Under the pieces are notes generated by a model. That model saw only the letters and a list, made by a program, of their open reading frames with translations. It did no database searches and was not told the origin of the DNA. The translations under genes were made by a program, and so were the position numbers. From Psococerastis gibbosa (Eukaryota; Arthropoda; Insecta; Psocodea; Psocidae): DNA of 64,000 nt. Positions 4,139 to 48,852 of the stretch are shown here, in pieces. The stretch lies in the NCBI GenBank assembly GCA_963971405.1, contig OZ020491.1, positions 6,442,855-6,506,854 of the forward strand, written 5' to 3'. Each line of letters begins with the position of its first letter. Position 1 is the first letter of the stretch.

Positions 4139-4401
4139 AATATAATTACACCATTGCCAGTAACCTTGACCGATAAACCCGGAAAATAAATATTAAATTT
4201 TACTTTCTTTTTTTAATTCCCGGAATCCCGTGACTATTCCCGGAACCCGGAACCCCGTATTATAAATTTCTGAATATAATTGTGCTTGACATGTTTAGGC
4301 ACATTCTAAGGCCACCACACCCTCCTATTATGCCGCTGCTTGGTCGGGGACGGATTATTCGTTATTTTAGCAGCTTGCCACCATGTAAGTAAGTAAGTAA
4401 G

Positions 4402-4817
4402 TATTTATTAATATCTGGTGGACTTTTCGCTATCCGTCACCTGCGACCCCGCTAGTAGCCCAATCCTTCCGACTCGATGCCTGGAAGCGATCTTACCCCC
4501 AAGTCCCCGATCCAAAGGAAGAACTGATGGCGGGCCACAACTTACCATACCCAATCTGGCGCACCCTGAACCGTTTGAGAACTGGCGCCCCACTCTGCAA
4601 AACAACAGCGGCGAAATGGGGTTTTATCGCTGAAGACGACACGGCGTGCGAATGTGGAGAGATCCAAGACGCGGCTCACATGCTAGTATGTAGACTACTG
4701 CCATCCCCTTGCACAGCTGCTGACCTGGCTGAAGCCAACGGCAAGGCCGTCCAGGCTGCTATATACTGGACCAATCAATAAAACGTGTGCCACCTGGACA
4801 CGTTAAGTAAGTAAGTA
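4402..4817 (+). pseudogene. 3' end of a LINE ORF2 with (TAAG)n tails
   Basis: An open frame runs from about 4402 to 4781. It contains WRTLNRLRTGAPLCK, a cysteine/histidine knuckle of the form CxCG(x5)AH(x3)C and a final AAIYWTNQ stretch. This is the usual C-terminus of Jockey/I-type non-LTR retrotransposon polyproteins. It begins right after one TAAGTAAGTAAG run (4385-4401) and is followed by another (4803-4817). It is a 5'-truncated retrocopy, not a gene. A second copy of the same family is at 51681. Confidence 0.8.
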
Positions 4818-5589
4818 GCCTGTAGCTCTGACTTAGGACTCACTTGACTATTCCAGCCATTTCTTTAGCCGAAACTGGTCACAAAACATCATTTTGAAAA
4901 ATATGAGTAAGTTGGAGCTAAGGCACTGACACTTGTAAAGTTATTTCACTTATTTATATTACCGGAATGTTTGAAACAGGACACCTTCAGACTATTCCTA
5001 ATAAATCATTTTGAAATGCCACATAATATGCAATGAAATAATCAAATGAAGTACCTATTGAAAACGCGCTTTATGAAATTCAGAAAATCACTGAAATACA
5101 GGATTTAATTAATAATGGAAGAAGGTTGCTCGGTCGATACCCAAGGGCATGCAAATTCAGTTGATTCATTAACTACGAGGGATTAAAGCCAATTTCCCAT
5201 CCAGTCACAATTTCGCGAGGCAAATATTTAATGAATTAAATTATACAGTACAATGATAAAGGATTAATGATGCGGAACATAAAATTATTAATTATTATTG
5301 TTGGCATTTTACAAAATGAAACAACAGTTCCGATTTTATCGATTGTCCCCTCCAGTGGGTTAGTTGCATGGACGGATATAGGGGGGGGGGCGCTGGGGTA
5401 GCTGCCCCCCCCCCCCAAATTTAGTAAATCTGTTTGTAGTTAAGTTATTACGGTCTTTTTTATCGATACTATGTTTGTTCCATTTTGACCCACAACTACC
5501 CCCCCCCCCCCGCAAATGGGCTGGATCCTTCCCTGGTTAGTTGTAAGTATAAATTGGACCCATTCAATTCAAGGCATAAGGCATAAGAG
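4818..5589. other. Unassigned; G/C tracts near 5380-5520
   Basis: No gene seen. The part 5340-5515 has paired G and C runs and a GGGGTAGCTGCCCCC segment related to 56160-56200, where it reads GGGGTAGCTAGCCCCCC. This is probably a decayed G-tract MITE. Confidence 0.45.
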
Positions 5590-23083: not shown

Positions 23084-23520
23084 TTAGACATGTAGAGTAG
23101 TGGTACAGAGTCTGATTTTCACCCGAAAGGTTGTTGGTTCGAGTCCCACACTTGCTACNNNNNNNNNNNNNNNNNNNNNNNNNNNNNNNNNNNNNNNNNN
23201 NNNNNNNNNNNNNNNNNNNNNNNNNNNNNNNNNNNNNNNNNNNNNNNNNNNNNNNNNNNNNNNNNNNNNNNNNNNNNNNNNNNNNNNNNNNNNNNNNNNN
23301 NNNNNNNNNNNNNNNNNNNNNNNNNNNNNNNNNNNNNNNNNNNNNNNNNNNNNNNNNNGGTTCGAGTCCCACACTTGCTACATTTTCTGGCCATGCTTCC
23401 GAGGGCATGTAAAGCAGGCGGTACTAGTTGAGTGTAAGAGAGGGCTTTATAGCCCTAACTACGCTAGGTTGGCTTAGTAAAAACACAAATTTATTTAATT
23501 TATTTATTTATTTATTTATT
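23084..23520 (+). mobile_element. SINE A containing an assembly gap
   Basis: The head (GACATGTAGAGTAGTGGTAC, CACCCGAAAGGTTGTTGG, GGTTCGAGTCCCACAC) precedes 200 Ns. The sequence resumes with the same B-box segment and then the full body and (TTTA)n tail. The 23 bp before and after the gap are the same. Confidence 0.8.
23159..23358. other. Assembly gap, 200 N
   Basis: A run of exactly 200 N, a round number typical of unknown-size scaffold gaps. Flanked on both sides by the same SINE A B-box segment, so the contig ends overlap in a repeat. Confidence 0.98.
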
Positions 23521-27692: not shown

Positions 27693-27921
27693 TTACATTG
27701 TAGTATTATATGGTATATAACACTGACATTAAATTAACTTTGGTTGAAGAGGTAACCTCCTCGTTATAACCGAAATTAGAGGATATGGAAAAAACTGGGC
27801 TTGGCGGGATTCGAACCCACGATCTACGCCTAACCGGGGCGTCGTCTTAACCGCTGGACCACAAGCCCCGACAAGTCCAGTAAATGCCAAATCCTCTACT
27901 TATGCTCTAATTGACATGATT
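27693..27921 (-). mobile_element. SINE B with 12-bp target duplication
   Basis: GGGTTTTATTCT flanks it at 27681-27692 and 27922-27933. The minus strand carries the head GGGGCTTGTGGTCCAGCGG, TTAAGACGACGCCCC, GGTTCGAATCCCGCCAAGCC, then GGTTATAACGAGGAGGTTAC. About 50 nt precede the tRNA-like part. Confidence 0.9.
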
Positions 27922-32165: not shown

Positions 32166-32171
32166 GACTTC
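32166..32171. repeat. Target-site duplication, left (GACTTC)
   Basis: GACTTC is repeated at 41394-41399. Joining TATCGACTTC from the left to GATGGCCAGG on the right restores the 5' end of SINE D (compare TATCGACTTCGATGGCCAGG at 44934-44955 on the minus strand). A 6-bp duplication is characteristic of Polinton/Maverick integration. Confidence 0.85.
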
Positions 32172-32183
32172 AGTAGATATAAA

Positions 32184-32660
32184 AGGGGGTTCCTGGGACA
32201 CTTTTAGGCCACTCTTGCTTTTTACCTCCGGGCATGGGGGTTCCTGGGACACTTTTAGGCCACTCTTGCTTTTTACCTCCGGGCATCATTATTGTTCTAA
32301 TTGTACATTGTCAGCCTCCGGCTATCACTTATTTTATACTACTTCTATGCTAACCTTGTAGCCTATAAAACCACAACACATCATATCACAGGGGGTTTCT
32401 GGGACACTTTTAGGCCACTCTTGCTTTTTACCTCCGGGCATCATTTATGTTCTTATTGTACGTTGTCAGCCTCCGGCTATCAATTATTTTATACTACTTA
32501 TATGCTAACCTTGTAGCCTATAAAACCACAACACATCATATCACAGGGGGTTTCTGGGACACTTTTAGGCCACTCTTGCTTTCTACCTCCGGGCATCATT
32601 ATTGTTCTTATTCTACGTTGTCAGCCTCCGGCTACCACTTATTTTATACTATACTTATAT
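32184..32660. repeat. Subterminal minisatellite (155-bp unit)
   Basis: Starts at 32186 and 32236 (50-bp partial), then 32391 and 32546. The unit reads TTTCTGGGACACTTTTAGGC, CTTTTTACCTCCGGGCATCA, GTCAGCCTCCGGCTATCA, TATGCTAACCTTGTAGCC. It lies directly inside the element terminus. Confidence 0.88.
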
Positions 32661-32796
32661 GCTAACCTTGTAGCCTTTCTTCTTCTTCCCTTCTCTTCTT
32701 CTTCTTCTTCTTCTTCACACAGTGTAAGGGGGTCGCCCCCTCCTGTTATCGGACATCATTCTCATCGTTTAAATAAATAAATAAATAAGGACTTTT

Positions 32797-33269
32797 TGTT
32801 CTATTACTAAGCCAACCTAGCGGAGTTAGGGCTATAAAGCCCTCTCTTACACTCAACTAGGAAGACCCGGGACCGCCTGCTTTACATGCCCTCCGAAGCA
32901 TGACCAGAAAATGTAGCAAGTGTAGGACTCGAACCAACAACCTTTCGGGTGAAAGTTGGAGTCCGTACCACCACTCTACATGTCCATTCTCATTGTTTCT
33001 TCTTCTTCTTCAGGGTCGCCCCCTCCTGTTATCGGACATCATTCTCATTGTTTAAATAAATAAATAAATAAGGACTTTTTGTTCTATTACTAAGCCAACC
33101 TAGCGGAGTTAGGGCTATAAAGCCCTCTCTTACACTCAACTAGGAAGGCCCGGGACCGCCTGCTTTACATGCCCTCCGAAGCATGACCAGAAAATGTAGC
33201 AAGTGTAGGACTCGAACCAACAACCTTTCGGGTGAAAGTTGGAGTCCGTACCACCACTCTACATGTCCA
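32797..33269 (-). mobile_element. Two SINE A copies in a 283-bp tandem duplication
   Basis: Copies at 32797-32986 and 33079-33269, both minus strand and nearly identical, each with GGACATGTAGAGTGGTGGTA, CACCCGAAAGGTTGTTGG, GGTTCGAGTCC and the GGTTGGCTTAGTAATAGAAC end. The duplicated unit also carries GGTCGCCCCCTCCTGTTATC and a TAAATAAATAAA tail, so the pair arose by duplication rather than two insertions. The anticodon-loop position reads TTC, as in tRNA-Glu. Confidence 0.9.
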
Positions 33270-33588
33270 TTCTCATTGTTTCTTCTTCTTCTTCACGTAG
33301 CCTACATACCATATTTCGGGCGATTTCGCCTCCGCAATGATTATTTATTTGATTTACATCATTTCATAGTCTATGATTAAGATAATCTTTCACCTTCACC
33401 ATTATTATTGAAGCAATAGTATGTTTCTTTCAACCATTGGTTTTTAATAATCATTATCTAATTATAAGCTTAAAACTAGTTATGTAATTAATAAAACAAA
33501 AACAGAAATATTTAAAGAAATTATTCATATATTTACATTTCATATTATTGGTGTAGTTAACATAATACTTCAGTACATAATGAAATCT

Positions 33589-33894
33589 TCATTCTAGGAT
33601 CTGTATGTTGACACTATTTTTTCCCCTATGGCTTGGAACGATGAGATACATCTCAGCTCCTGGAGTGACTTTGCTTCCTTGAAAGGCTGACAGGTATAGT
33701 TGAGGTATAAAACACTCCACAACTTCTTTTTCCGGTCCTCGCAGTATCACTTTCACAGCTGGCCCATATTCTGTTTTGTCTATCTGCACTATTTTCAGTA
33801 TTTGGTACTTAGCTCCAATCACCAGTTTTCGCATTGACATGGTGGGCCCGGCTTCTTGGTTGATGGCATTAACTTTATCACATAGAGATGCCAT
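33589..33894 (-). CDS. 101-aa OB-fold-like protein of the element, left copy
   Basis: A complete ORF from ATG at 33894. The pattern LVIGAKYQILKIVQIDKTEY followed by GPAVKVIL and a CFIPQLY segment (about residues 24-68) resembles small single-strand DNA-binding OB-fold proteins that I associate with arthropod mobile elements; this is recognition by pattern, not a proven family. No signal peptide or membrane segment. It is divergent from the 231-aa gene across a 403-bp gap, and is identical to the right-arm copy at 39671. A role in genome replication of the element is inference. Confidence 0.7.
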   Translation of the reverse strand: MASLCDKVNAINQEAGPTMSMRKLVIGAKYQILKIVQIDKTEYGPAVKVILRGPEKEVVECFIPQLYLSAFQGSKVTPGAEMYLIVPSHRGKNSVNIQILE

Positions 33895-34297
33895 GTTCTA
33901 AGATTACACAAATTCACTTGTAAAGTTGGCGTAGTATTACTTGAATGAAGGTTTGGTCTCAACTAAGCCCCTCAACTGAGATGAGGGTGTATATCAGGTA
34001 AAATCATGTTGTGAGGGCCACAGCCGGAGGGGGATAGTTAAGTAATTTCTCCATTGCACCATATTTGTTAATGTAGGAATCGTTTCTTAATGTTGATCTC
34101 TCATACACATCGGTGTATTATAGGCAGCTTACAACCTTAAATCAAATGACTGATTTGTCCTTCTGTACCTAAGGCACTACATTTATGGTACCCCACCTAG
34201 TTCTAAATCGATTGTGTCTCATTATCTCTCTTTAATGACCATAATTAACCGGGTTGTATATGTAACATGTGTGAAATAGCATCAGTTGCAATTGAAA
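33895..34297. promoter_or_regulatory. Divergent intergenic region, left arm
   Basis: 403 bp between two divergent ORFs, the only place where promoters for both can sit. It contains GGTTGTATATGTAACATGTG about 35 bp before the 231-aa ATG and several short inverted motifs (AATCAAATGACTGATTTG). No precise TATA or initiator can be fixed. Confidence 0.45.
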
Positions 34298-34993
34298 ATG
34301 AAGGGTGTCTTGACCACATATTATCCACTTCGTGATGGACTAAGCATTATTGTTGGTTTGCAATTCAAAGCATCAGCATTCGAAGTATACATCATAGTTG
34401 GTGATAAGGATCATGAAATTATATTCAATATGATCGAATGGCAGTCATGGTGTGCAACATTACAATCCTTTCGTTTATATCTACATAAGAAAACAATGTG
34501 TGGAAATATGATATGGACTCCTAATTTCATCAAATCAAACCTGACGATGATGTTAACGAATGATAATGAATTGGAAATGAAGTCCTCATCATCACATATT
34601 AAACTATCTAAAATAAATATTGAGAACATACAAGCGTTGAAAGCAATTCTTCATATTGTTTGCCATGAGTTGGAAAAGAAGAAGAGGTTGGCTAATTTCC
34701 ATCTAAAAAATATTATGGAAGAGATATTTATAGAGTTGGAAACAGATGATGTTTCAATGGAAGCTCTTTTACAGTTTGCCCAATCTCCAGCTCCAATAGT
34801 AGCTACTATCGAGGATGTTCGCAGTAAACTATTGTGGAAGAAGCATCAAAATCAATCAAATCGTATGTATTTAGAAATTATAACCATCTATGAAAATGAG
34901 TTGTGCTATGAGATACTTAAGCGCTGGTTGGAGCGAGCTAAAGTCATTATCAATCAGACTGTTGAACACGATGGAACCGCTGGGGATAATTGA
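34298..34993 (+). CDS. 231-aa protein of unknown function, left copy
   Basis: The first in-frame ATG is at 34298; the frame is open a little further upstream but only from a TTG. I do not recognise the family. Visible features: a hydrophobic N-terminal third (VLTTYYPLRDGLSIIVGLQF), a Trp/Cys-containing segment near residues 47-55, a Ser-rich patch near 97, and a charged helical C-terminal half with HELEKKKRLANFHLKNIMEE. No signal peptide or clear catalytic motif. Its last 23 bp overlap the next gene in another frame, a viral-style compact arrangement. Identical to the right-arm copy. Confidence 0.7.
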   Translation: MKGVLTTYYPLRDGLSIIVGLQFKASAFEVYIIVGDKDHEIIFNMIEWQSWCATLQSFRLYLHKKTMCGNMIWTPNFIKSNLTMMLTNDNELEMKSSSSHIKLSKINIENIQALKAILHIVCHELEKKKRLANFHLKNIMEEIFIELETDDVSMEALLQFAQSPAPIVATIEDVRSKLLWKKHQNQSNRMYLEIITIYENELCYEILKRWLERAKVIINQTVEHDGTAGDN

Positions 34994-35462
34994 GTTTCAA
35001 GGTTTCAAAGATAATGAAAATAATTTCATCATCAAAGAATTGGCTATGGGCCCTGCATGCAAGAACCAGTATGAACATTGGTTTTTCCGTCCACCCTTTC
35101 CATTCACCAATCTTACAAATCAAGTAAAAAGCAACAACACATGGTGCACAAATAATCTCCATAAGCTTCGTTGGGAAGAGGGGAACGTGGACTACATTCA
35201 TTTAAAGAATATTTTACTAGAGTTTGCTAACCAATATGTTAGAATTGCTACTAAAGGAAAGGAGAAACAAGTTTGGCTTGCAGGAATACTAGAATGTGTT
35301 GTGTATGACTTGGACTCTGTGCTTCTGAGGAGTTTTGAGAAGTTACCTCATCTAGAAGCTAAGAAATGTATTCATACAGGAAACTGTGCAATGATCAATT
35401 TGAGGAAACTACAGAAATGGTTTCAAGATGTCAATTGTTTAATTGATGATGATGTTGATTAA
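34971..35462 (+). CDS. 163-aa protein, possibly RNase H-fold, left copy
   Basis: The start is placed at ATG 34971 (overlapping the previous ORF by 23 bp); an upstream ATG at 34890 would add 27 residues read antiparallel in function to the 231-aa frame and is less likely. Motifs: GIIEFQGFKD near the start, an FIIKELAMGP strand, FRPPFPF, RWEEGNVDY, and a C-terminal KKCIHTGNCAMINLRKLQKW segment with CxxH(x..)CA..N...L..W spacing. The acidic residues after the first strands recall DEDD/RNase H-like nucleases, but I cannot prove a fold. It ends with TAA overlapping an AATAAA, 13 bp from the convergent integrase. Confidence 0.65.
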   Translation: MEPLGIIEFQGFKDNENNFIIKELAMGPACKNQYEHWFFRPPFPFTNLTNQVKSNNTWCTNNLHKLRWEEGNVDYIHLKNILLEFANQYVRIATKGKEKQVWLAGILECVVYDLDSVLLRSFEKLPHLEAKKCIHTGNCAMINLRKLQKWFQDVNCLIDDDVD

Positions 35463-35475
35463 AATAAAGTTATGT

Positions 35476-36537
35476 TTATAAAATTTCCGTTTTATTAATC
35501 CATGTAGGTTTCGGGAAACCAAGCCACTTCACATACAATTTATCCTTAGACTTTTTCAACACTTTCTCCACCAAATATACATCTGTGTGCTTGGTTTTCT
35601 GCAACTCTTCCATATACCACGACCCTAATATAGGTTCACCATCCATAGCCTCAAGGAGATAGGTAGTAGGTCGAGTAGGTTGTACAAGACGCACACGAAA
35701 TACTTCTGTAGACCAGTTCGGTTGGTAACCCTTCTCAAATAAGGCTTTCTGCTTGCTGATTCTGACGGGATCACCCTCTCGAAATTTCTGTTTGGTACTA
35801 CCTTTCTCATCAACAGCTCTATACATAGATAATAATTTTGCTTCATGTTCTTCTCCCACATCGGCAGGACACATCTTAATGGTCCTATGCTTCGTAGTGT
35901 TGTATTGTTGCACTAAGCGAGGTACTAAATGTAACCACTTATAACCACCCTGCAAGCTGAATTCCTTCCACATTCGATTTTTCAGAGTGCGATTCCAACG
36001 TTCAATAATTGAAGCTTTCAGTGTAGAATAAGTAGCATAATGATTAATGTTATATTGTTTTAGAATACATTTCATTTGTATATTGAAAAATTCCAGTCCC
36101 ATATCTGTCTGAAGGTGGGCAGGAGCTTGAGGAGCTCTATCGAGAATTTTTACAAAAGCTTCAGTTACATCCTTCATAGATTTAGTTTTAACTGCTTCTG
36201 CATAGCCGAACTTTGTGAATGCATTTATCACTGTTAGAATATATTTATATCCTTTATTAATCTTTGAATATGGAATCATTTCCACCAGATCTGCTTGCCA
36301 TAAATCATGCATTCCTTTAACAGTCACATGGCGTCGGGGATAATTCCGTCGAGCAGGTCGATGAATTTCATCAACCAAAGCTTGTTTCATTGAATAATAA
36401 TATTTGCTTCTCAAGACAGGTTTTAACTTCCGCTCTTGCTGAGAAGCCTCATTGTGTAGATCACGTTTAAGATTAAGGTACTTTTGTTGCAGAGCTTTGC
36501 GTATGTTGATAATATTCTTGATAACTTTGGTATCCAT
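35476..36537 (-). CDS. Polinton integrase with chromodomain (complete)
   Basis: 353 aa from ATG 36537. The N-terminal 50 residues are basic. The rve catalytic core shows the DDE triad: D83 in LWQADLVEM, D145 in HLQTDMGLEF and E179 in KASIIERWNRTLK, with D-to-E spacing 33. A C-terminal chromodomain (about 319-353) reads YLVEKVLKKSKDKLYVKWLG. The ERWNRTLKNRMWKEF and YNTTKHRTIKM segments are typical of Polinton integrases. It would insert element ends and make 6-bp duplications, as seen at both borders. The ATPase fragment lies 47 bp upstream on the same strand. This is the only complete integrase, because its first 42 codons lie in the spacer. Confidence 0.92.
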   Translation of the reverse strand: MDTKVIKNIINIRKALQQKYLNLKRDLHNEASQQERKLKPVLRSKYYYSMKQALVDEIHRPARRNYPRRHVTVKGMHDLWQADLVEMIPYSKINKGYKYILTVINAFTKFGYAEAVKTKSMKDVTEAFVKILDRAPQAPAHLQTDMGLEFFNIQMKCILKQYNINHYATYSTLKASIIERWNRTLKNRMWKEFSLQGGYKWLHLVPRLVQQYNTTKHRTIKMCPADVGEEHEAKLLSMYRAVDEKGSTKQKFREGDPVRISKQKALFEKGYQPNWSTEVFRVRLVQPTRPTTYLLEAMDGEPILGSWYMEELQKTKHTDVYLVEKVLKKSKDKLYVKWLGFPKPTWINKTEIL

Positions 36538-37152
36538 ATCTACTACACCGTGTTATAGTCGAATGAATAATGATGAGTTACGTGTTAAGCAGAGTTATTT
36601 ATATCTTTGAAATAGTGATCGAATCCCTGCCGATATCGTCCATCATTTAATCCAAAATCTTTTGCAATAACTAGGAATGTATGTGACTCTTTCCATGCTT
36701 CCGCACAGAGTTTCATGAATGTCGCTAAATTCATATCTCCCGCAACATGGTCTCTATACACATTCTTTATATTAAGCAAATCCTGTTTGAATAATACGAT
36801 AAAATTCAAATTATCTCGCAGCAAATGTTTCGGAATGGAGGTATAGGTCTGAGTGAGATAGAAGCAATCAACCCCTTTATGACGACCCATAGAGTAGACA
36901 TTTCGAATTTCCCCTTGAGATTCACATGAAACATCATCGAATATTAGCACAGAGTTAGGTTTGATGTCAGAGAGTGGTGTAACCGAATCGCCTGACCCTG
37001 TAAAAGTCATCCCACGAATAGAATTGATATTTTTCTCAAGCTGCTGGTATTTATGTTGAAACAATGTCTTGCAGAATAAGTACACATTTTCAAATCGTAG
37101 ACCAAACGGATGATATATCATGCCGAAATCATTAATATTATCAACGAATTGC
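36413..37152. other. Unique spacer at the palindrome centre
   Basis: 740 bp with no inverted counterpart. It holds the first 42 codons of the complete integrase, a 47-bp intergenic gap and the ATPase segment. Its right border, GC|GAGAAGC, is where the inverted arm begins. Confidence 0.9.
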
Positions 37153-37175
37153 GAGAAGCAAATATTATTATTCAA
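36585..37175 (-). pseudogene. Packaging-type ATPase, N-terminus lost
   Basis: About 189 genuine residues. Walker B is NSVLIFDDVSCE, followed by GRHKGVDCFYLTQTYTSIPK and LLRDNLNFIVLFKQD, the sensor region of A32/FtsK-HerA-type packaging ATPases found in Polintons and related viruses. The Walker A P-loop, which should precede FENVYLFCKT, is missing. The first eight codons of the open frame come from the inverted arm (antisense integrase), and the frame opens at a TTG, not ATG. The break at 37152 thus marks where the original element was lost. Not expected to be active. Confidence 0.88.
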
Positions 37176-38089
37176 TGAAACAAGCTTTGGTTGATGAAAT
37201 TCATCGACCTGCTCGACGGAATTATCCCCGACGCCATGTGACTGTTAAAGGAATGCATGATTTATGGCAAGCAGATCTGGTGGAAATGATTCCATATTCA
37301 AAGATTAATAAAGGATATAAATATATTCTAACAGTGATAAATGCATTCACAAAGTTCGGCTATGCAGAAGCAGTTAAAACTAAATCTATGAAGGATGTAA
37401 CTGAAGCTTTTGTAAAAATTCTCGATAGAGCTCCTCAAGCTCCTGCCCACCTTCAGACAGATATGGGACTGGAATTTTTCAATATACAAATGAAATGTAT
37501 TCTAAAACAATATAACATTAATCATTATGCTACTTATTCTACACTGAAAGCTTCAATTATTGAACGTTGGAATCGCACTCTGAAAAATCGAATGTGGAAG
37601 GAATTCAGCTTGCAGGGTGGTTATAAGTGGTTACATTTAGTACCTCGCTTAGTGCAACAATACAACACTACGAAGCATAGGACCATTAAGATGTGTCCTG
37701 CCGATGTGGGAGAAGAACATGAAGCAAAATTATTATCTATGTATAGAGCTGTTGATGAGAAAGGTAGTACCAAACAGAAATTTCGAGAGGGTGATCCCGT
37801 CAGAATCAGCAAGCAGAAAGCCTTATTTGAGAAGGGTTACCAACCGAACTGGTCTACAGAAGTATTTCGTGTGCGTCTTGTACAACCTACTCGACCTACT
37901 ACCTATCTCCTTGAGGCTATGGATGGTGAACCTATATTAGGGTCGTGGTATATGGAAGAGTTGCAGAAAACCAAGCACACAGATGTATATTTGGTGGAGA
38001 AAGTGTTGAAAAAGTCTAAGGATAAATTGTATGTGAAGTGGCTTGGTTTCCCGAAACCTACATGGATTAATAAAACGGAAATTTTATAA
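37175..38089 (+). pseudogene. Integrase, second copy, N-terminus truncated
   Basis: Identical to residues 50-353 of the complete copy, starting at an internal ATG. The arm supplies residues from 43 on; upstream is ATPase antisense with a stop in frame. The whole DDE core and chromodomain remain (D, D and E at 34, 96 and 130 in this numbering). Loss of the 49 N-terminal residues removes most of the region before the core, so function is doubtful but not excluded. Confidence 0.85.
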
Positions 38090-38102
38090 ACATAACTTTA
38101 TT

Positions 38103-38594
38103 TTAATCAACATCATCATCAATTAAACAATTGACATCTTGAAACCATTTCTGTAGTTTCCTCAAATTGATCATTGCACAGTTTCCTGTATGAATACATT
38201 TCTTAGCTTCTAGATGAGGTAACTTCTCAAAACTCCTCAGAAGCACAGAGTCCAAGTCATACACAACACATTCTAGTATTCCTGCAAGCCAAACTTGTTT
38301 CTCCTTTCCTTTAGTAGCAATTCTAACATATTGGTTAGCAAACTCTAGTAAAATATTCTTTAAATGAATGTAGTCCACGTTCCCCTCTTCCCAACGAAGC
38401 TTATGGAGATTATTTGTGCACCATGTGTTGTTGCTTTTTACTTGATTTGTAAGATTGGTGAATGGAAAGGGTGGACGGAAAAACCAATGTTCATACTGGT
38501 TCTTGCATGCAGGGCCCATAGCCAATTCTTTGATGATGAAATTATTTTCATTATCTTTGAAACCTTGAAACTCAATTATCCCCAGCGGTTCCAT
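38103..38594 (-). CDS. 163-aa protein, possibly RNase H-fold, right copy
   Basis: Mirror image of 34971-35462 with an identical translation; the same 23-bp overlap with its upstream neighbour and 13 bp to the convergent integrase copy. Confidence 0.65.
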   Translation of the reverse strand: MEPLGIIEFQGFKDNENNFIIKELAMGPACKNQYEHWFFRPPFPFTNLTNQVKSNNTWCTNNLHKLRWEEGNVDYIHLKNILLEFANQYVRIATKGKEKQVWLAGILECVVYDLDSVLLRSFEKLPHLEAKKCIHTGNCAMINLRKLQKWFQDVNCLIDDDVD

Positions 38595-39267
38595 CGTGTT
38601 CAACAGTCTGATTGATAATGACTTTAGCTCGCTCCAACCAGCGCTTAAGTATCTCATAGCACAACTCATTTTCATAGATGGTTATAATTTCTAAATACAT
38701 ACGATTTGATTGATTTTGATGCTTCTTCCACAATAGTTTACTGCGAACATCCTCGATAGTAGCTACTATTGGAGCTGGAGATTGGGCAAACTGTAAAAGA
38801 GCTTCCATTGAAACATCATCTGTTTCCAACTCTATAAATATCTCTTCCATAATATTTTTTAGATGGAAATTAGCCAACCTCTTCTTCTTTTCCAACTCAT
38901 GGCAAACAATATGAAGAATTGCTTTCAACGCTTGTATGTTCTCAATATTTATTTTAGATAGTTTAATATGTGATGATGAGGACTTCATTTCCAATTCATT
39001 ATCATTCGTTAACATCATCGTCAGGTTTGATTTGATGAAATTAGGAGTCCATATCATATTTCCACACATTGTTTTCTTATGTAGATATAAACGAAAGGAT
39101 TGTAATGTTGCACACCATGACTGCCATTCGATCATATTGAATATAATTTCATGATCCTTATCACCAACTATGATGTATACTTCGAATGCTGATGCTTTGA
39201 ATTGCAAACCAACAATAATGCTTAGTCCATCACGAAGTGGATAATATGTGGTCAAGACACCCTTCAT
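38572..39267 (-). CDS. 231-aa protein of unknown function, right copy
   Basis: Mirror of 34298-34993, identical protein, ATG at 39267. Both copies are complete because they lie fully within the arms, so the element carries two doses of this gene. Confidence 0.7.
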   Translation of the reverse strand: MKGVLTTYYPLRDGLSIIVGLQFKASAFEVYIIVGDKDHEIIFNMIEWQSWCATLQSFRLYLHKKTMCGNMIWTPNFIKSNLTMMLTNDNELEMKSSSSHIKLSKINIENIQALKAILHIVCHELEKKKRLANFHLKNIMEEIFIELETDDVSMEALLQFAQSPAPIVATIEDVRSKLLWKKHQNQSNRMYLEIITIYENELCYEILKRWLERAKVIINQTVEHDGTAGDN

Positions 39268-39670
39268 TTTCAATTGCAACTGATGCTATTTCACACATGT
39301 TACATATACAACCCGGTTAATTATGGTCATTAAAGAGAGATAATGAGACACAATCGATTTAGAACTAGGTGGGGTACCATAAATGTAGTGCCTTAGGTAC
39401 AGAAGGACAAATCAGTCATTTGATTTAAGGTTGTAAGCTGCCTATAATACACCGATGTGTATGAGAGATCAACATTAAGAAACGATTCCTACATTAACAA
39501 ATATGGTGCAATGGAGAAATTACTTAACTATCCCCCTCCGGCTGTGGCCCTCACAACATGATTTTACCTGATATACACCCTCATCTCAGTTGAGGGGCTT
39601 AGTTGAGACCAAACCTTCATTCAAGTAATACTACGCCAACTTTACAAGTGAATTTGTGTAATCTTAGAAC
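39268..39670. promoter_or_regulatory. Divergent intergenic region, right arm
   Basis: Mirror of 33895-34297; would drive the 101-aa gene rightward and the 231-aa gene leftward. Confidence 0.45.
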
Positions 39671-39976
39671 ATGGCATCTCTATGTGATAAAGTTAATGCC
39701 ATCAACCAAGAAGCCGGGCCCACCATGTCAATGCGAAAACTGGTGATTGGAGCTAAGTACCAAATACTGAAAATAGTGCAGATAGACAAAACAGAATATG
39801 GGCCAGCTGTGAAAGTGATACTGCGAGGACCGGAAAAAGAAGTTGTGGAGTGTTTTATACCTCAACTATACCTGTCAGCCTTTCAAGGAAGCAAAGTCAC
39901 TCCAGGAGCTGAGATGTATCTCATCGTTCCAAGCCATAGGGGAAAAAATAGTGTCAACATACAGATCCTAGAATGA
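39671..39976 (+). CDS. 101-aa OB-fold-like protein, right copy
   Basis: Identical to the left copy; ATG at 39671. The AACATGGCATC start context and the downstream AT-rich stretch are mirrored. Confidence 0.7.
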   Translation: MASLCDKVNAINQEAGPTMSMRKLVIGAKYQILKIVQIDKTEYGPAVKVILRGPEKEVVECFIPQLYLSAFQGSKVTPGAEMYLIVPSHRGKNSVNIQILE

Positions 39977-40295
39977 AGATTTCATTATGTACTGAAGTAT
40001 TATGTTAACTACACCAATAATATGAAATGTAAATATATGAATAATTTCTTTAAATATTTCTGTTTTTGTTTTATTAATTACATAACTAGTTTTAAGCTTA
40101 TAATTAGATAATGATTATTAAAAACCAATGGTTGAAAGAAACATACTATTGCTTCAATAATAATGGTGAAGGTGAAAGATTATCTTAATCATAGACTATG
40201 AAATGATGTAAATCAAATAAATAATCATTGCGGAGGCGAAATCGCCCGAAATATGGTATGTAGGCTACGTGAAGAAGAAGAAGAAACAATGAGAA

Positions 40296-40768
40296 TGGAC
40301 ATGTAGAGTGGTGGTACGGACTCCAACTTTCACCCGAAAGGTTGTTGGTTCGAGTCCTACACTTGCTACATTTTCTGGTCATGCTTCGGAGGGCATGTAA
40401 AGCAGGCGGTCCCGGGCCTTCCTAGTTGAGTGTAAGAGAGGGCTTTATAGCCCTAACTCCGCTAGGTTGGCTTAGTAATAGAACAAAAAGTCCTTATTTA
40501 TTTATTTATTTAAACAATGAGAATGATGTCCGATAACAGGAGGGGGCGACCCTGAAGAAGAAGAAGAAACAATGAGAATGGACATGTAGAGTGGTGGTAC
40601 GGACTCCAACTTTCACCCGAAAGGTTGTTGGTTCGAGTCCTACACTTGCTACATTTTCTGGTCATGCTTCGGAGGGCATGTAAAGCAGGCGGTCCCGGGT
40701 CTTCCTAGTTGAGTGTAAGAGAGGGCTTTATAGCCCTAACTCCGCTAGGTTGGCTTAGTAATAGAACA
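40296..40768 (+). mobile_element. Two SINE A copies, mirror pair
   Basis: Mirror of 32797-33269: copies at 40296-40486 and 40579-40768, plus strand. These are the clearest SINE A copies in the window and serve as reference: head, B-box GGTTCGAGTCC, body, TTTATTTATTTA tail. Confidence 0.9.
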
Positions 40769-40904
40769 AAAAGTCCTTATTTATTTATTTATTTAAACGA
40801 TGAGAATGATGTCCGATAACAGGAGGGGGCGACCCCCTTACACTGTGTGAAGAAGAAGAAGAAGAAGAAGAGAAGGGAAGAAGAAGAAAGGCTACAAGGT
40901 TAGC

Positions 40905-41381
40905 ATATAAGTATAGTATAAAATAAGTGGTAGCCGGAGGCTGACAACGTAGAATAAGAACAATAATGATGCCCGGAGGTAGAAAGCAAGAGTGGCCTAA
41001 AAGTGTCCCAGAAACCCCCTGTGATATGATGTGTTGTGGTTTTATAGGCTACAAGGTTAGCATATAAGTAGTATAAAATAATTGATAGCCGGAGGCTGAC
41101 AACGTACAATAAGAACATAAATGATGCCCGGAGGTAAAAAGCAAGAGTGGCCTAAAAGTGTCCCAGAAACCCCCTGTGATATGATGTGTTGTGGTTTTAT
41201 AGGCTACAAGGTTAGCATAGAAGTAGTATAAAATAAGTGATAGCCGGAGGCTGACAATGTACAATTAGAACAATAATGATGCCCGGAGGTAAAAAGCAAG
41301 AGTGGCCTAAAAGTGTCCCAGGAACCCCCATGCCCGGAGGTAAAAAGCAAGAGTGGCCTAAAAGTGTCCCAGGAACCCCCT
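40905..41381. repeat. Subterminal minisatellite, mirror copy
   Basis: Mirror of 32184-32660 with the same unit number and the same 50-bp partial unit nearest the terminus. Confidence 0.88.
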
Positions 41382-41393
41382 TTTATATCTACT

Positions 41394-41399
41394 GACTTC
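41394..41399. repeat. Target-site duplication, right (GACTTC)
   Basis: Second copy of the 6-bp duplication, continuing directly into SINE D. Confidence 0.85.
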
Positions 41400-41525
41400 G
41401 ATGGCCAGGTGGTAACGTGCTTGCACTTGTGCAAGTCCTTTCACGCCATGCGATCGGAGACGTGTCGTAGCTCAACACGGGTACTAACCTACAGAGACGG
41501 CTGAAGAGGTCAATCGGATACAAAA
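41394..41525 (+). mobile_element. SINE D interrupted by the Polinton-type element
   Basis: GACTTCGATGGCCAGGTGGT, ACGTGCTTGCACTTGTGC, CGGAGACGTGTCGTAGCTCA, ACACGGGTACTAACC and GAGGTCAATCGGATAC. Its first bases lie on the far side of the element at 32162-32171. Confidence 0.82.
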
Positions 41526-41639
41526 AAAATGTTTAAAATAAAAAAAAATAAGTAATGATAAAAATAAAAAGTAATACTATAAAGTAATACTATCTGCCAA
41601 TACATATCATTCTTATATATCTTAACTAAGTCTTTATTA

Positions 41640-48635: not shown

Positions 48636-48852
48636 CAATATATTGTAGTAATGTATGGTATATATAACACTGACATTAAATGAACTTTGGTTGAAAAGGT
48701 AACCTCCTCGTTATAACCGAAATTAAAGGATATGGAAAAAACTGGGCTTGGCTGGGGCTTGTGGTCCAGCGGTTAAGACGACGCCCCGGTTAGGCGTAGA
48801 TCGTGGGTTCGAATCCCACCAAGCCCAGTTTTTTCCATATCCCCTAATTTCG
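48636..48852. mobile_element. SINE B fold-back
   Basis: 48636-48753 is an inverted SINE B body ending GGATATGGAAAAAACTGGGC. A plus-strand head follows at once and then the body restarts in plus orientation (AAGCCCAGTTTTTTCCATAT). The two bodies pair over about 35 bp with the tRNA-like head as loop. Confidence 0.75.
48755..48826 (+). other. tRNA cloverleaf-like SINE B head
   Basis: 72 nt with a perfect 7-bp acceptor stem (GGGCTTG / CAAGCCC), D-arm and A-box TGGTCCAGCGG, anticodon stem ACGCC/GGCGT with loop CCGGTTA, and T-arm GTGGG-TTCGAAT-CCCAC. The loop lacks U33 (it has C), and the sequence is repeated in other SINE B copies, so I call it a SINE head rather than a working tRNA gene. Confidence 0.75.

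Follow-up and report, generated by a model that had tools for sequence, protein, structure and literature searches.

Among protein-primed linear DNAs, inverted duplicated ends are a feature of the symmetric defective genomes of adenoviruses (primary paper, Daniell 1976) and of the palindromic forms derived from yeast linear plasmids. The snapback genomes of adeno-associated virus (AAV) are self-complementary, come from the left or the right half of the genome, may be symmetric or asymmetric, and form a major class beside the full genomes, according to the accessible part of PMC8235507. Intact Mavericks are marked by terminal repeats and 6-bp duplications, and Polinton particles had not been observed (PMC8097293, available portion). 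Three shortened endogenous mavirus-like elements (EMALEs) keep flanking terminal inverted repeats, which in the view of the authors must have regenerated after truncation (PMC8547959, accessible part). Here a palindromic insertion of the Polinton type in the insect Psococerastis gibbosa is described. It lies within a stretch of 64,000 nucleotides, referred to as the window (G000:C19:6442855-6506854), and its relatives were surveyed in the whole assembly (409 Mb, 68 contigs). The best explanation is that this window copy belongs to a class of fold-back (symmetrised) Polintons. It probably arose by fold-back, or from half-genomes joined head to head, during extrachromosomal replication and was integrated afterwards.

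Self-comparison of the window confirmed that the element at 32172-41393 is a palindrome of 9,222 bp, with 4,241-bp arms around a 740-bp spacer. The left arm (32172-36412) and the reverse complement of the right arm (37153-41393) agree at 4,241 of 4,241 bases, with no mismatches. This match is far beyond chance, and the palindrome is real in the assembly; the sole run of N in the window (23159-23358) is outside the element. These dimensions agree with those of the initial annotation. It had also proposed that removal of the element, together with one of the GACTTC copies on its two sides, rejoins an interrupted short interspersed element (SINE), and this was borne out: the joined flanks, which represent the empty site, align without a gap through GACTTC to the SINE copy at 44937-44803, with 120 of 135 positions identical. 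This gapless alignment to another SINE means that the window palindrome is one insertion with a 6-bp duplication.

Positions on the family map are given as i, the distance from the integrase-side end measured on other copies of the family. I and P denote the integrase end and the polymerase end, and C-numbers are assembly contigs. On this map the window copy runs from i1 to 3958, from 4508 to 5220, and then inverted from 3987 to 1. The real fold-back point is located between 37123 and 37124 (i5220/3987), the arm/spacer borders being elsewhere, and the fold-back loop covers i3988-5220. The initial annotation had placed junctions at 36412/36413 and at a border in front of the right arm. Both hold as borders of the palindrome; however, the fold-back is at 37123/37124 and not at 37152, and 36412/36413 is a separate deletion. 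This deletion of 549 nt shortened the left arm, so that 29 nt of the right arm resemble spacer. A deletion cutting into the integrase was considered and rejected: it sits just upstream of the integrase. All 39 other scored relatives of the spacer (40 of 142 candidates were scored) lose the match after spacer base 711, beyond which other copies run into an ATPase with a nucleotide-binding motif, as read by eye. That the window fold-back junction is unique is judged from these 40 scored candidates together with the mapped paired insertions. A 283-bp repeat unit (i559-841) is doubled on both arms. The terminal repeat at 32172-33370 and its mirror contain 51-bp, 155-bp, and 283-bp tandem repeats, the number of which varies among copies. 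The ends start with AGTAGA, which is near, and not equal to, the vertebrate Maverick motifs (AG/AGT repeat type) in the available portion of PMC8097293.

The window copy encodes the integrase twice, with one complete frame of 304 aa on each arm, along with part of the ATPase and, on each arm, three small frames. Comparison with the family map placed both the polymerase and the capsid regions among the absent parts, as the initial annotation had stated. PF00665 was detected in the integrase frame of the window copy and in that of a normal copy; homologues are at most 61% identical, and one is labelled putative polinton-1. The ATPase scored 23.6 bits with Pox_A32 (cut-off, 22.8), and only its C-terminal part is present in the window copy. 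Normal copies encode an rve integrase, a double-jelly-roll capsid protein (PF21738, E 2e-92, i7394-8620), a phospholipase A2-like domain (PF08398, E 9e-14, at L018:370-1146), the ATPase, and a 1,345-aa frame (i8908-12942). Homologues of this last frame include adintovirus PolB (45%) and proteins with PF03175. Searches of Pfam, NCBIfam, and PHROGs assigned it to no polymerase family, and the PDB gave no match; its own scans match only endonuclease VII and a zinc finger. NCBIfam and PHROGs scans of four frames gave an endonuclease VII-like match in the polymerase-size frame and otherwise weak matches. Most of the named relatives of this frame come from marine invertebrates. The scan for an adenovirus-type protease gave only a sub-threshold Peptidase_C5 match (E 0.06), and the integrase search of viral contigs gave no match. 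The rve integrase, ATPase, double-jelly-roll capsid, polymerase gene of the normal copies, 6-bp target duplication, and terminal inverted repeats are all shared with Polintons/Mavericks. In contrast to these, the window copy repeats one end as a palindrome (arms of 4,241 bp with 740 bp between them) and has neither a polymerase nor a capsid gene. Rather than a complete member, it is a defective offshoot of a family that itself fits the Polintons.

The terminal 30-mer occurs 85 times in the genome, always without mismatch. These ends consist of 76 paired ones (38 insertions), three internal termini of scrambled copies, and six unpaired ones. Thirty-five pairs are nearest facing ends; for C1:43544372, C20:2363372, and C34:30451, where the nearest pair had no duplication, the outer ends were chosen by the duplication. 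A perfect 6-bp duplication bounds 38 of 38 paired insertions, with 38 different sequences (chance expectation about 0.01). The 38 insertions are part of the family: a P-side marker shows 12 more P sides outside the pairs. Polarity was assigned from the sequence adjoining the terminal repeat on its inner side and then by block mapping; for the normal copy C3:36942501, in which the right junction is inside the repeat, the preceding block was used. Normal I/P polarity was found in 24 insertions of 11.6-14.9 kb, with terminal inverted repeats (916 bp in a normal copy) around a unique interior; 12 of them are between 14,155 and 14,193 bp. Eleven are symmetric: seven I/I copies, including the window copy (9.2-13.1 kb), and four P/P copies (8.1-16.4 kb). 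The other three (10.6-15.4 kb) are scrambled, each with an internal terminus, and I at both outer ends is clear only in C1:43544372. Assignment of C20:2363372 and C34:30451 as I/I was rejected, because their right ends hold terminal repeat only (732 and 206 nt). At the right end of C2:38981184, I-side sequence follows after only 206 nt of terminal repeat; this copy was classed as I/I since it contains i2312-3738 twice, in inverted orientation. A genome-wide search with the P-side marker gave none in seven of seven I/I copies, 3, 2, 2, and 3 in the four P/P copies, and exactly one in 23 of the 24 normal copies. The initial annotation had called the element a Polinton-type fold-back in which one end is present twice and which was inserted as a unit, and had predicted other palindromic copies with different 6-bp duplications. 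The anatomy and the ten further symmetric insertions among the 38 duplication-bounded pairs support it. The four copies built from the opposite (P) end had not been foreseen. Other copies (L012, L018, L022, and so on) are near-identical and have long open frames; the family has therefore been recently active.

An assembly artefact might be suspected, either through wrong joins between near-identical copies of 14 kb or through chimeric fold-back reads taken up into the assembly, since the copies are indeed near-identical and one contig involved, C34 (55 kb), is small and tangled. Chimeric fold-back reads, however, would double the flanks, and each of the 38 pairs has two different flanks and its own duplication, which led to rejection of a simple chimera. 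In addition, all 11 symmetric copies are on contigs of at least 22.8 Mb, and the N run of the window lies elsewhere. An artefact is thus very improbable.

The junctions of the symmetric copies are given in Table 1. All 11 differ, and none recurs. At the junctions examined, homology amounts to 0-3 nt, and C14 and C15 have fillers of 2 and 6 nt, respectively; an origin by homologous recombination is therefore unlikely. A long-lived palindromic subfamily, copying itself as a palindrome in the manner of Foldback-like transposons, could account for the near-coincident breakpoints of three I/I copies described below, but it does not accord with 11 different junctions or with palindromes arising from both ends. 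A single self-propagating subfamily was rejected on the former ground, and we regard this origin as very improbable. Furthermore, the three similar copies (C2:28936238, C2:38981184, and C14:28459323) have no minor allele in common at the 10 informative sites.

The two arms of one element are much alike. In nine symmetric copies, one mismatch and one gap were found in 23,559 bp; the tenth, C2:38981184, has no differences in 1,427 bp, and additional arm stretches of C12 (1,705 bp) and C14 (728 bp) gave no further difference. Between the I arms of 22 different elements the median was 2.0 differences per kb, and 6 of 210 pairs were identical (21 of 231 pairs were dropped as too short). Private variants are present on both arms of C14:28459323 (i2254) and C2:38981184 (i2381), and one prior rearrangement is common to both arms of C12:12807519. 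This means that, in most cases, both arms came from one molecule or its sisters.

The same anatomy, with its loops, fillers, 0-3 nt homology, and intact duplications, could be produced by conversion in place, a process known in outline for cut-and-paste transposons. An inserted I/P element would be cut, the broken end in the terminal repeat would copy the opposite arm, and end joining would close the gap; the 6-bp duplication would survive because the outermost bases are never replaced. In this case the original outer end should be retained. The two ends differ over their outer 800 nt in 10 of 16 normal copies and are identical in the other 6, whereas they are identical in nine of nine palindromes (Fisher p 0.003; p 0.017 without three normal copies having large gaps). 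This comparison covered only 16 of the 24 normal copies (seven of the others had short pieces only, and one had its repeat cut at 690) and 9 of the 11 symmetric ones (the others being the C20 ends and C2:38981184, which is identical over its 200 nt). The internal termini of the three scrambled copies are not accounted for by conversion alone and agree better with extrachromosomal molecules that had been joined. Together, the identical outer ends and the internal termini favour, and do not prove, formation before insertion, and conversion in place seems rather unlikely.

For the fold-back origin the following course can be proposed. The family would replicate as linear DNA separate from the chromosome; each terminal repeat would contain an origin, and priming would probably be by protein. 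A nascent strand may snap back on itself or on its sister strand, or two half-genomes may join head to head, at 0-3 nt of homology, and the product would carry one end twice. The terminal repeats would supply the signals needed by the integrase, so that the product could be inserted like a normal genome, making the 6-bp duplication. The window copy additionally lost the 549 nt beside the fold and, with two integrase frames and neither a polymerase nor a capsid gene, would need a helper to replicate. The extrachromosomal timing, the priming, and the helper dependence are inferred from the family (PMC6431247 and PMC8097293, accessible parts). Insertion of copies of both the I/I and the P/P type suggests that neither a single internal I signal nor a single internal P signal is required in cis, and that the terminal repeat, which the two ends share, contains all the cis-acting sequence that insertion demands.

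Several points weigh against this course. No recurring junction among the 11 points to renewed movement of a palindrome. Three of the seven I/I copies have near-coincident breakpoints (3608/9222, 3737/9345, and 3738/9255; that is, i3608-3738 and i9222-9345), and plain random fold-back predicts no such coincidence; only 2 of 200,000 random draws reached it, in a test devised after the pattern was seen. A replication-arrest hot spot or a constraint on size might be the cause, as might a recent common ancestor followed by trimming. Four differences in 3,560 bp separate the arms of the P/P copy C20:19813814; this copy looks, from its sequence, to have been joined from two molecules rather than folded from one, and strictly intramolecular fold-back for every copy was rejected on this account. 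With the 9 differences in 3,704 bp between the arms of the scrambled C1:43544372, this indicates that joining or switching between different molecules also occurs. Protein priming is deduced from the homology of the relatives' polymerase and from other papers. Finally, all the structures were read from the assembly and not from sequencing reads.

The likeness to the symmetric adenovirus genomes and the yeast plasmid derivatives is limited in that both ends give palindromes in the element family described here. Nearest in kind appear to be the AAV snapback genomes and the truncated mavirus-like elements with regenerated repeats, as far as the accessible parts of the sources go. Like the AAV defective interfering genomes, the psocid copies are self-complementary, come from either half, and have full genomes alongside: seven I/I and four P/P copies, each self-complementary and derived from one helper end, are present beside the 24 normal copies. 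AAV, however, is a hairpin-primed single-stranded virus whose snapback genomes were seen in particles (PMC8235507, same part), whereas the psocid copies are chromosomal insertions with target duplications. The accessible part of PMC8547959 describes neither palindromes nor their junctions in EMALEs. A palindromic class of Polintons was not found in the literature searched, which included few subscription papers, or in the available portions of PMC12090768, PMC6431247, PMC8097293, PMC12220804, PMC8235507, and PMC8547959.

In the three scrambled copies, C1:43544372-43559198 (L014-L016), C20:2363372-2378764 (L023-L025), and C34:30451-41003 (L027, L028), an exact terminus is joined directly to internal sequence, and one 6-bp duplication encloses each whole copy. 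Some stretches of the C34 copy match no part of the family map. C34 (54,994 bp) starts at i3163, and another copy on it breaks at i3161; L026, also on C34, is a further fold-back with its left end cut by the contig start. Possibly the assembly path of C34 is tangled or circular. In the window, two predicted tRNA-Thr (GGT) genes, at 27796-27868 (-) and 48755-48827 (+), flank the insertion in opposite orientation, about 21 kb apart.

Table 1. Features of the window copy and of its target site (window coordinates), and junctions of the symmetric copies (family map; a slash joins the two map positions brought together)
Feature	Position	Strand	Remark
Target site duplication GACTTC, left copy	32166-32171	.	
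Target site duplication GACTTC, right copy	41394-41399	.	
SINE copy broken by the insertion	41394-41528	+	first bases left of 32171
Left arm, I side: i1-841, then i559-3958	32172-36412	+	unit 559-841 twice
Right arm, exact reverse complement of left arm	37153-41393	-	
Terminal inverted repeat part, left	32172-33370	+	916 bp in normal copy; longer here by the 283-bp repeat
Terminal inverted repeat part, right	40195-41393	-	mirror of 32172-33370
101-aa frame, no assigned function, left arm	33589-33894	-	mirror 39671-39976
Two overlapping frames, no assigned function, left arm	34286-35462	+	mirror 38103-39279
353-aa frame: integrase (rve, E 6.5e-10) fused to start of upstream frame	35476-36537	-	integrase part 35476-36390
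Deletion junction: i3959-4507 (549 nt, kept in other copies) gone	36412-36413	.	2-nt microhomology
Loop i4510-5220, single copy	36413-37123	+	ATPase gene end and start of neighbouring frame
Packaging-type ATPase, C-terminal part (Pox_A32, E 4.2e-5)	36585-37175	-	frame spans fold-back junction
Fold-back junction i5220/3987	37123-37124	.	without microhomology; other copies continue into ATPase N-terminal part
29 nt of right-arm sequence, i3987-3959	37124-37152	-	left-arm partner lost in deletion
Second complete integrase frame, 304 aa	37175-38089	+	
I/I junction, window copy	5220/3987		
I/I junction, C1:25349168	3296/2156		after jump 6562/2067
I/I junction, C2:27444078	8836/1355		
I/I junction, C2:28936238	3608/9222		
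I/I junction, C2:33115259	11424/1313		
I/I junction, C2:38981184	3738/9255		with 206/2312
I/I junction, C14:28459323	3737/9345		
P/P junction, C15:12573821	11115/9111		
P/P junction, C19:7911815	10268/6674		
P/P junction, C20:19813814	6228/12485 and 13323/9602		
P/P junction, C12:12807519			both arms are P sequence fused to repeat and I sequence

Fold-back would give a truncated element two terminal repeats in one step, which bears on the puzzle posed by the mavirus-like elements (PMC8547959, accessible part). An annotation that demands a polymerase or a unique interior would overlook this class. Free replicating Polinton genomes are hard to catch; hence the value of the symmetric insertions. 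In them the chromosome preserves replication errors that require a linear stage outside it, and the succession of events can still be read. Mirror-image insertions of either end suggest that the DNA replicates in a free linear form and that misfolded products are still able to insert. As a tentative extension, which we hold possible and on balance doubtful, fold-back Polintons might be satellites, similar to defective interfering genomes, of an animal Polinton that replicates now or did so recently. They would be symmetrised from either end in protein-primed replication, would compete for the helper polymerase, and would integrate no less readily than full genomes, since the terminal repeat common to both ends meets the two cis-acting needs. 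If this were true, the head-to-head self-complementary copies in the chromosomes could yield double-stranded RNA against the family.

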